From the NCBI GenBank assembly GCA_029975055.1, contig JARKPU010000005.1, positions 1 through 64,000 of the forward strand: 64,000 bases of DNA, read 5' to 3'. Position 1 is the first letter of the stretch; every line of letters begins with the position of its first letter. The notes under the pieces were generated by a model. That model did no database searches. It had not been told where the DNA came from and saw only the letters and a program-made list of their open reading frames with translations. A program made the position numbers and the translations under genes. Below are positions 44,307 through 47,321 of this stretch, in pieces. This DNA comes from Anaerolinea sp. Its GTDB lineage: Bacteria; Chloroflexota; Anaerolineae; Anaerolineales; Anaerolineaceae.

Positions 44307-44948
44307 ATGAGCGATCTGGACCTGGCGATTGAACTGCTCGAACAGGGCATGCGGGCCGAGGCTGTGAAGGAACTGGAGCGCATCCTGAGCGCCGATATCG
44401 ATAACATCTCGGCCTGGCGGCTGCTGGCCCAGGCTGTCACCGACCCGCAGGAGGTGAAGGAGTGCTACGAGCACGTCCTTCGCCTCGATCCGCACGACCG
44501 CGAAGCCGCCATCGCCCTGCAAGAGATGGGCGTGGAGGAGGCAGACCTCACCAGCGACGTGCCGCCCTTCTTCCATGAGGATGTCGAAGAACTGGGCTAC
44601 CAGTGGCAGCCCGAAGAACCTCCGCGCGAGCCGGGCGTCGATACCGCGCCGCTCAAGATGAAGGACGCCTACCCTGTTATTGAGCCCCCGGCAGATGCTC
44701 TCGCCCAAGCCGAAGAAAACCACGAAGCGCTCAAACGCGCCGAGGCCGCCCTCTTTGATGAAGAGGAAGAAGCCCCCGCCGTCCCCGAAAAGCAAGCCCC
44801 CTCGGGCAGCATCCTGGAGAATGACTCGTTCTTCTACACCGCCGTTGTCGTCATCCTCCTCATCCTCGCCGTGGTCGTCATCTACATCTTCCGCCAATCC
44901 ATCTGGGAATTCATCCAGGCCAATCTGCCGTTCCTGTTCAACAAGTGA
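44307..44948 (+). CDS. TPR-like protein with C-terminal TM anchor
   Basis: LDLAIELLEQGMRAEAVKELERILSADIDNISAWRLLAQAV...; C-terminal TM. Confidence 0.6.
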   Translation: MSDLDLAIELLEQGMRAEAVKELERILSADIDNISAWRLLAQAVTDPQEVKECYEHVLRLDPHDREAAIALQEMGVEEADLTSDVPPFFHEDVEELGYQWQPEEPPREPGVDTAPLKMKDAYPVIEPPADALAQAEENHEALKRAEAALFDEEEEAPAVPEKQAPSGSILENDSFFYTAVVVILLILAVVVIYIFRQSIWEFIQANLPFLFNK

Positions 44949-45000
44949 TCCGCTGCGCAGGCTGCCCCTAAAAGAGAGCGGAACCATGCTTCCTGGCAAA

Positions 45001-45298
45001 GCCTGCGCAGGCAGGCTTCGCGCCCCCCTTGCCGCGGTTTCAACCGCCCGGAACTCGCCTGCGCCCGCCCTTTGAGCCTACGCAGGCAGGCTTCGCGCCC
45101 CCTCTTGCCGCGGTTTCAACCGCCCAGGACTCGCCTGCACCCGCCCTTTGAGCCTGCGCAGGCAGGCTTCGTGCCCCTTTTGCAGCGGTTTCAACCGCCC
45201 GGAACTCGCCTGCGCCCGCCCTTTGAGCCTGCGCAGGCAGGCTTCGCGCCCCCTCTTGCCGCGGTGTCAACCGCCCGGAACTCGCCTGCACCCGCCCT
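45001..45298. repeat. Minisatellite, 4 x ~75 bp direct repeats with internal palindromes
   Basis: Units start at 45001, 45076, 45152 and 45227; each has GCCTGCGCAGGC (or variant) and GCGGTTTCAACCGC. Confidence 0.95.
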
Positions 45299-45315
45299 AA
45301 CCAAACCGGTTTCGG

Positions 45316-45344
45316 TTGAAATTCTCCCCCTTCTATGCTATGAT
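45316..45344 (+). promoter_or_regulatory. metG leader promoter
   Basis: TTGAAA(45316-45321)-N17-TATGAT(45339-45344). Confidence 0.8.
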
Positions 45345-45365
45345 TGGGTCTGCAAGGGAGTCACG

Positions 45366-45443
45366 ATGTGCCTGATGATGAGCATGCGCATGACAATGAT
45401 GATGCGTGGGAGAAACCCCTCTCCGCCGTGTCAGGCTGCCTGA
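45366..45443 (+). CDS. Met-rich leader peptide MCLMMSMRMTMMMRGRNPSPPCQAA (putative attenuator of metG)
   Basis: SD AAGGGAG just upstream; 8 Met in the first 13 codons; followed by an intrinsic terminator and metG. Confidence 0.85.
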   Translation: MCLMMSMRMTMMMRGRNPSPPCQAA

Positions 45444-45464
45444 AACACCCTGCGTGAATTCGGC

Positions 45465-45491
45465 CCGGCTGGCGGAATGCCAGCCGGTTTT
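45465..45491 (+). terminator. Intrinsic terminator in the metG leader (attenuator)
   Basis: CCGGCTGGC-ggaat-GCCAGCCGG then TTTTGTGTT. Confidence 0.9.
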
Positions 45492-45527
45492 GTGTTAACC
45501 ACTCTGCCAACATCCTTGAGGTGCCCT

Positions 45528-47321
45528 ATGTCTGAACCGGAATACATCCTCGTCTCAATTGCCTGGCCCTATGCCAACGCCGAAATCCACGTCGGCAATA
45601 TCACCGGCTCTCACCTGCCCGGCGATATCGTCGCGCGCTACCACCGCCTCAAGGGCAACCATGTGCTGATGGTCTCGGGCACCGATTCGCACGGCACGCC
45701 CGTCACGCTGCGCGCCGATGCCGAGGGCAAGCCCATCGAGGAGGTCTACAAGCGCTACCACGACGGCTTCCTCGATCTCTTCCAGCAGGCCGGCATTTCC
45801 TTCGACCTCTTCACCACCACCCACACCGAGAACCACTTCAAGGTCTCGCAGAGCATCTTCCTGGCCCTGCTCAAGAACGGCTACCTCTATACCGAGACGC
45901 GCCCGCAGTGGTATTCACCCGCTGCCAAACGCTTCCTGCCCGACCGCTACGTGGAAGGCACCTGCTACATCTGCGGCTTCGAAAACGCGCGCAGCGACCA
46001 GTGCGACCGCTGCGGCAACGTCCTCGAGCCCGAAAAGCTGCTCAACCCCCGCTCCAAGGTCGATTCCTCCACCCCTGAGCTGCGCGAAACCCAGCATTAT
46101 TACCTCGACCTTTCCAAGCTCGAGCCCGAAGTGGCCGAGTTCCTGCGTGAGCGCCAGTCTTACTGGCGCGAGACGGTCATCCGTCAGTCGCTCGGGCAGA
46201 TCGAGAGCGAGGGCCTGCGCAGCCGGCCGATCACCCGCGACCTCGACTGGGGCATCCCCGTGCCGGTGAACGGCTGGGAAGGCAAGTGCCTGTATGTGTG
46301 GTTCGAGGCGGTCATTGGCTACCTGTCCGCCTCCATCGAGTGGGCGCAGCTGGCCGGCGCGCCCAAAGAGTGGAAGCACTGGTGGACGAACCCCAACGCG
46401 AAAGCCTTCTACTTCATCGGCAAAGATAACATCTTCTTCCACGCCGCCTTCTGGCCCGCCCAGCTCCTGGGCGTCGGCGAGCAGTTCCTCGAGGTCTTCG
46501 CCGGCGAATACGGCCAGCCCCTCACCCTGCCGTACGACGTCCCAGCCAACCAGTTCATGAACCTGGAGGGCGAGAAGATCTCCGGCAGCCGCAACTGGGC
46601 CGTTTGGGGGCGCGATTTCCTCACCCGCTACGACCCCGACCCGCTGCGTTATTACCTGACGGCCAATATGCCCGAGCTGCGCGACACCGACTGGGATTGG
46701 GAAGATTTTTATCACCGCAACAACGACGAGCTGGTGGCCACCTGGGGCAACCTGGCCAACCGCGTGCTGGCCTTCGCGGTGAAGAACTTCGAGGGCAAAG
46801 TGCCAGAGCCTGGCCCGCTCACCGCGCAGGATGAAGAAATCTTACGCACCGTGGAGGGCGGTTTCGCCTCGGTGGGCGCCGAGCTAGAGGCGGTGCACCT
46901 GCGCAGCGCGCTGGCCGAGGCCATCCGCCTGGCCACCGAAGTCAACCGCTACCTCGACCAGACCGCCCCCTGGAAGGCGATCAAAACCGACCGCCCCGCC
47001 GCGGCGCGCGCGGTGTACACGGCCCTGCGCTGCATTGACAACCTCTCGGTGCTCCTGGCGCCCTTCCTGCCGCACACCAGCGAAAAGCTGCACAGCTTCT
47101 TCGCCTACGAAACGCCGCTTTTCGGCAAGCAGGCCACCCAGCAGGTGAGCGACGGGCTGGGCACGCACAACGTCTTGCGTTACGATCCAGACGGCGCCTC
47201 CGGCCGGTGGGAGCCAAGCAAGCTCCGGCCCGGCAGCCCGCTCATCGAGCCGCAGCCGCTCTTCAAGAAGCTGGATGCATCCATCATCGCGGAGGAACGC
47301 GCCCGCTTGGGCAGAAAGTAA
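45528..47321 (+). CDS. metG: Methionyl-tRNA synthetase
   Basis: ILVSIAWPYANAEIHVGNITGSHLPGDIVARYHRLKGNHVLMVSGTDSHGTP, CYICGFENARSDQCDRCG zinc knuckle. Confidence 0.96.
   Translation: MSEPEYILVSIAWPYANAEIHVGNITGSHLPGDIVARYHRLKGNHVLMVSGTDSHGTPVTLRADAEGKPIEEVYKRYHDGFLDLFQQAGISFDLFTTTHTENHFKVSQSIFLALLKNGYLYTETRPQWYSPAAKRFLPDRYVEGTCYICGFENARSDQCDRCGNVLEPEKLLNPRSKVDSSTPELRETQHYYLDLSKLEPEVAEFLRERQSYWRETVIRQSLGQIESEGLRSRPITRDLDWGIPVPVNGWEGKCLYVWFEAVIGYLSASIEWAQLAGAPKEWKHWWTNPNAKAFYFIGKDNIFFHAAFWPAQLLGVGEQFLEVFAGEYGQPLTLPYDVPANQFMNLEGEKISGSRNWAVWGRDFLTRYDPDPLRYYLTANMPELRDTDWDWEDFYHRNNDELVATWGNLANRVLAFAVKNFEGKVPEPGPLTAQDEEILRTVEGGFASVGAELEAVHLRSALAEAIRLATEVNRYLDQTAPWKAIKTDRPAAARAVYTALRCIDNLSVLLAPFLPHTSEKLHSFFAYETPLFGKQATQQVSDGLGTHNVLRYDPDGASGRWEPSKLRPGSPLIEPQPLFKKLDASIIAEERARLGRK

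Follow-up and report, generated by a model that had tools for sequence, protein, structure and literature searches.

Leader-peptide attenuators control amino-acid operons, as with trpL, hisL, ilvL, pheA and thrL, and in E. coli the leader peptide pheM places the synthetase operon pheST under the same kind of control. For methionine, RNA-level control usually takes the form of SAM riboswitches or T-boxes, and we know of no well-known attenuator that reads methionine codons. Attenuation of amino-acid and aminoacyl-tRNA operons is reportedly the subject of Lopatovskaya 2010, Mol Biol 44:128. Leader-peptide attenuators have also been described for trpS and leuS in Streptomyces (PMC1262725) and leader-peptide control for hisS and hisZ in bacilli (PMC2965389), while the Actinobacteria study, in the portions available, found no conserved RNA structure at Met operons (PMC1262725). 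The locus described here has in common with the pheST, trpS/leuS and hisS/hisZ leaders that a synthetase gene stands under codons of its own amino acid; none of those leaders is for methionine, and the available portions of these accounts mention no Met leader.

Here we describe a leader ahead of the methionyl-tRNA synthetase gene metG of an Anaerolinea species (Chloroflexota) that, judged from its sequence, is very probably a ribosome-mediated leader-peptide transcription attenuator sensing the charging of Met-tRNA. Like trpL, hisL, ilvL, pheA and thrL it consists of a promoter, an ORF of cognate codons and a mutually exclusive antiterminator and terminator, followed by the regulated gene; it differs from them in being devoted to methionine and metG, and in that the ORFs of about half of such leaders are probably leaderless, with the AUG near the -10 box. 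T-box leaders likewise sense tRNA charging and place a terminator ahead of synthetase genes, whereas metG, hisS and tyrS would here sense through the codons of a translated ORF. The kind of control is classical; its apparent novelty lies in amino acid, gene and phylum, in its breadth and in its coexistence with T-boxes in one genome. The open-licence literature yielded nothing relevant on a Met leader at metG or on such leaders in Chloroflexota, and an earlier prediction is possible.

Anatomy of the metG leader

The window, meaning the whole 64 kb stretch of DNA analysed, contains the sequence features of an attenuator, i.e. a Met-rich ORF, an intrinsic terminator, an upstream promoter (by sequence match) and a competing antiterminator (Table 1). 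The downstream gene had been named as metG and was confirmed as such by profile search (TIGR00398, 487 bits, cut-off 336). Direct reading and scanning reproduced to the base the promoter, Shine-Dalgarno sequence and Met-rich ORF of the original prediction, and the segments from which it had built its competing structures are all present (GGAGA at 45409-45413, TCTCC at 45420-45424, TCCGCCG at 45422-45428 and TGGCGGA at 45470-45476). The intrinsic terminator it had proposed exists as well, with limits now read as a hairpin at 45465-45487 and a T-rich tail to 45496, and its figure of 36 nt between terminator and gene is correct, the metG start codon being the ATG at 45528.

Table 1. Features of the metG leader region in the window
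Feature	Position	Strand	Evidence
Sigma-70-type promoter TTGAAA-N17-TATGAT, extended -10 (TATGCTATGAT)	45316..45344	+	Site scan, sequence match
Shine-Dalgarno AAGGGAG of the leader ORF	45354..45360	+	Sequence
Leader-peptide ORF MCLMMSMRMTMMMRGRNPSPPCQAA*	45366..45443	+	Sequence, ORF scan, related ORFs in G001, G002, G004 and other families
Met control codons (seven internal ATG)	45375..45404	+	Sequence
Possible protector hairpin GGAGA/TCTCC	45409..45424	+	Sequence
Antiterminator 5' strand, in the ORF tail (partner 45461-45476)	45422..45438	+	Predicted fold and duplex
Antiterminator 3' strand, overlapping the terminator 5' arm	45461..45476	+	Predicted fold and duplex
Intrinsic terminator hairpin, about -20 kcal/mol	45465..45487	+	Terminator scan, folding
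T-rich terminator tail TTTTGTGTT	45488..45496	+	Sequence
metG, methionyl-tRNA synthetase, 597 aa	45528..47321	+	TIGR00398 above cut-off

Methionine occupies codons 1, 4, 5, 7, 9, 11, 12 and 13 of the leader ORF, that is 8 of its 25 codons. The promoter is the only sigma-70-like site that the site scan returned between 43000 and 48500, where 0.6 would be expected, and of 40 terminator-like sites across the window only that of the metG leader adjoins an ORF with at least 4 Met in 14 codons. Directly 5' of the leader promoter, at 45000-45300, lie about four tandem G+C-rich units of about 75 nt each (GCCTGCGCAGGCAGGCTTCGCGCCCC...CTCGCCTGC...).

Met leaders at metG within Chloroflexota

For comparison, 277 distinct metG upstream regions were collected at the levels of family, order, class and phylum. 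A strict criterion asked for at least 4 internal Met within 14 codons of an ORF whose end lies -8 to 45 nt ahead of an intrinsic terminator; a looser one asked for at least 3 over the same span, again with an intrinsic terminator adjoining. Strict matches were found in 69/277 regions and looser ones in 89/277, as against 0/554 dinucleotide shuffles of the regions reaching even 3 Met. The strict matches comprise 4/69 regions of the window's family, confined to its own genus, 35/47 from named contigs outside the family set, 28/76 of the order set, 2/66 of the class set and 0/19 from the rest of the phylum, rates that are biased by the choice of the named contigs as best MetG matches and by the removal from the order set of copies already counted. 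In each of the two positive groups, Met leads the enriched residues (35 vs 12 for Ala, and 28 vs 16 for Arg). No Met leader was detected before metG of Bellilinea, Longilinea or Leptolinea in the upstream-region scan.

Within the genus, all four species with sequence upstream of metG carry the element (the window's species, G001, G002 and G004), and it also occurs in many further families of the order; metG of the fifth species, G003, lies at the end of a contig, which kept it out of the count. The leader peptides of G001, G002 and G004 read MKTTVMMGSMMMRGEILFPFCLAA, METLLMGMRGMMMRGRRISPPVLAA and MKRLMMSMSMLSMRGRFFSPPRQGF, and in each case a terminator comes next, 34-39 nt ahead of metG. Between families both peptide and RNA vary outside the Met positions, which are kept, and the C-terminal residues track the RNA pairing by group (AA, SPP, EWKAR). 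The conservation check suggested by the original prediction found Met codons, terminator, promoter position and antiterminator recurring at metG in the genus and the order. G004 also has a second, partial metG beside the full gene (G004:C1:446300-447451), which matches residues 213-596 of MetG in the window at 78% identity.

All four genus members share an extended -10 box, TATGCTATSAT, at the same position. In 46 of the 89 leaders a TAnnnT hexamer begins 12 or 13 nt 5' of the first leader ATG, frequently accompanied by a suitably spaced TTGACA. A -10 box so placed would put the start of transcription at the ATG or within a few bases of it, and many of the leader ORFs are, to judge by this spacing, probably translated from leaderless transcripts; in the window, a short untranslated region carrying a Shine-Dalgarno sequence precedes the ORF.

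Competing RNA structures

The original prediction had proposed an antiterminator of 7 pairs. Folding does predict an antiterminator, but seven pairs are too few: the predicted structure has 15, joining 45422-45428, 45430-45432 and 45434-45438 with 45461-45476, and reaches -24.0 kcal/mol when the 3' arm of the terminator is not yet made (-25.1 as a duplex). Short pairings like GGAGA/TCTCC are possible in all four genus members by inspection of the sequence, and in the window this one could possibly hide the antiterminator strand if no ribosome occupies its 5' arm.

Most leaders carry, just 3' of the Met codons, a copy of the terminator 3' arm that can pair with the 5' arm, in the forms UCCGCC:GGCGGA, GGGCAGC:GCUGUCC, GGCAGCC:GGCUGCC and UGGAnAGC:GCUGUCCA. 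In group B (24 leaders) UGGAnAGCnCGUUAG pairs with AACGGGCUGUCCA; here 100% of cells preserve the terminator pairs and 93.8% the antiterminator pairing, vs 20-54% for the latter with the partners slid, with a modest covariation consisting of double changes at 2 pairs. Group B' pairs GGGCAGC or GGCAGCC with GCUGUCC or GGCUGCC, and the leaders of the window's genus have the CUCCGCC form of the strand, which varies together with its partner (UCCGCC/GGCGGA in the window, CACCGCC/GGCGGUG in G002, CCGUU/AGCGG in G001). When arms were swapped among the 89 leaders, a tail paired with its own arm at -17.8 kcal/mol and with foreign arms at -14.3 (0/2000 permutations, kinship among the leaders being uncorrected). 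When the first 46 leaders are folded with the ribosome on the last Met codon and before the 3' arm has been transcribed, the mean probability that the 5' arm pairs upstream is 0.72 (0.60 when shuffled); placing the ribosome at the stop codon lowers it to 0.19.

A subgroup of eight leaders (L093, L096, L106, L109, L118, L135, L142, L149) has, around the leader stop codon, a conserved hairpin (GCAGUUCA...UGAACUGC) whose loop contains GCCAG, which is complementary to the terminator 5' arm. From this complementarity, these eight may switch via a pseudoknot antiterminator.

At equilibrium the picture is mixed. Across leaders, terminator probability is 0.84 with the ribosome at the stop codon and 0.65 at the Met codons (52 up, 3 down), a rise that is partly trivial since less RNA is free. 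Against dinucleotide-shuffled spacers the effect in the 89 leaders (0.68 vs 0.80, Wilcoxon p = 0.10) is a trend only. A switch at equilibrium is predicted for G002, where terminator probability goes from 0.01 with the ribosome on the last Met codon to 0.87 with it on the stop, and for G004 (0.23 to 0.73), with no clear switch for G001 (0.81 and 0.87) and none for the full-length window leader (0.78 and 0.77). The two folding states envisaged by the original prediction fit as regards the competing pairing, but the window's terminator stays at about 0.78, so that antitermination there would have to be kinetic. In the folding model, the window's antiterminator would win only if formed before the 3' arm of the terminator is transcribed; kinetic switching of this kind is usual for attenuators.

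Codon identity, rival readings and a proposed mechanism

A covariance model built from group B and searched in 121 genomes has its strong matches at metG: of 30 loci fetched, 26 are immediately followed by metG and the remaining four match weakly, and no strong match lies away from metG. The model does not fit the window's own subtype (no match in G000), and further Met leaders of the window's subtype may yet occur elsewhere; a peptide search of the window's own genome returned only metG at low E-value. In that genome an ORF ending LLHHHAHLHRS and then an intrinsic terminator stand ahead of hisS (TIGR00442; L349:1080-1320), and the ORF MFAPLYAYPYSYEVL and then a terminator ahead of tyrS (TIGR00234; L350, reverse strand). 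Relatives likewise have His-rich leaders at hisS (L363; L366, MFTERHAHHHRNGD; L371, ...ASHHHHHHNGHFSLG), and genus members have Tyr-rich leaders at tyrS (L380, L382). As cross-controls, 27 hisS regions gave 4 His-rich, 0 Met-rich and 0 Tyr-rich leaders, and 8 tyrS regions gave 3 Tyr-rich, 0 Met-rich and 0 His-rich. At the level of sequence, no other single argument for reading the leader as an attenuator is as strong as this match of codon to gene (Met at metG, His at hisS, Tyr at tyrS), and because codon identity follows the synthetase, the ORF is taken as a Met leader rather than a chance low-complexity ORF, a candidate rejected on the shuffles, the window-wide scan and the His and Tyr cross-controls. 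The original prediction had called a Met attenuator on metG unusual, which holds in that no Met version was found in the open-licence literature searched, but it is not a one-off, given the His and Tyr leaders at hisS and tyrS.

Other synthetase genes of the same genome have T-box leaders, found by Rfam search at L340, L341, L342, L346 and L347, with genes taken as valS, ileS, leuS, thrS and serS on the basis of family hits and N-terminal sequences. All five score below the Rfam gathering score (E 4e-9 to 2e-16) and would therefore be missed by routine annotation. The same search gave no T-box (RF00230) match at the window's metG leader, the T-box core motif is absent ahead of that gene, and hisS and tyrS of the genome gave no T-box match. 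SAM riboswitch families gave no match at the metG leader either, nor did any Rfam family even at E 0.5, and these candidates were rejected.

That lineage habit of placing T-boxes with terminators at several synthetase genes lends some plausibility to a T-box, SAM riboswitch or novel aptamer ending in the metG terminator, with the ORF as a by-product; since the promoter abuts the leader ATG in 46/89 leaders, leaving no upstream room for an aptamer, and since Rfam families are absent from the leader, we regard this as extremely unlikely. The terminator might instead belong to the upstream unit, whose gene has the same orientation and stops at 44948, with the Met-rich ORF arising by chance and no regulation involved. 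Such an origin has very little probability in view of the promoter lying between that gene and the terminator, the conservation of the element, the empty result of the 554 shuffles and the fact that no other terminator in the window has so Met-dense an ORF beside it.

Two further possibilities accept a working ORF and dispute what it is for. Upstream ORFs that sense ribosomes are reported (e.g. PMC12121999), and the leader could respond to translation generally, as when antibiotics or stress slow it, with the Met codons incidental; this is very unlikely, as Met is kept where other positions of peptide and RNA vary and as the codons change to His at hisS and to Tyr at tyrS. Met-rich peptides can bind copper, and the ORF could encode a functional, e.g. 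metal-binding, peptide adjacent to metG by accident, to which we assign an almost negligible probability because the peptide is unconserved between families except at the Met positions and its C-terminal residues follow the RNA pairing. The attenuator reading is preferred because the Met-rich ORF and terminator are conserved together, the promoter lies just before the ATG, ORF tail and terminator arm can pair, codon matches gene, and neither a T-box nor another Rfam family is present.

From these features we infer ribosome stalling, antitermination in the cell and a response to Met-tRNA, which would work together as follows. Transcription would begin just ahead of the short, AUG-crowded ORF. 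With Met-tRNA plentiful, the ribosome would reach the UGA and cover the ORF tail, the terminator would fold, and transcription would end some 30-40 nt short of metG. With Met-tRNA scarce, because methionine is short or the synthetase insufficient, the ribosome would stall in the AUG cluster and leave the tail free to pair with the emerging terminator 5' arm, so that no terminator forms and metG is transcribed. The output of metG would in this way be adjusted to the supply of charged elongator Met-tRNA.

By its sequence, the metG leader appears to belong to a wider series of leader-peptide attenuators that this lineage has on its synthetase genes. Anaerolineales probably use two kinds of tRNA-charging sensor on a set of these genes, T-boxes for some amino acids and cognate-codon leaders for Met, His and Tyr, the Met leader being old, order-wide and often leaderless. 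As an order-wide element, it would extend ribosome-mediated attenuation to a further amino acid, gene and phylum, account for many unannotated small ORFs in Chloroflexota and provide a natural sensor of elongator Met-tRNA charging, and the presence of T-boxes and leader peptides in one genome would make it possible to ask directly what leads a lineage to one sensor or the other.
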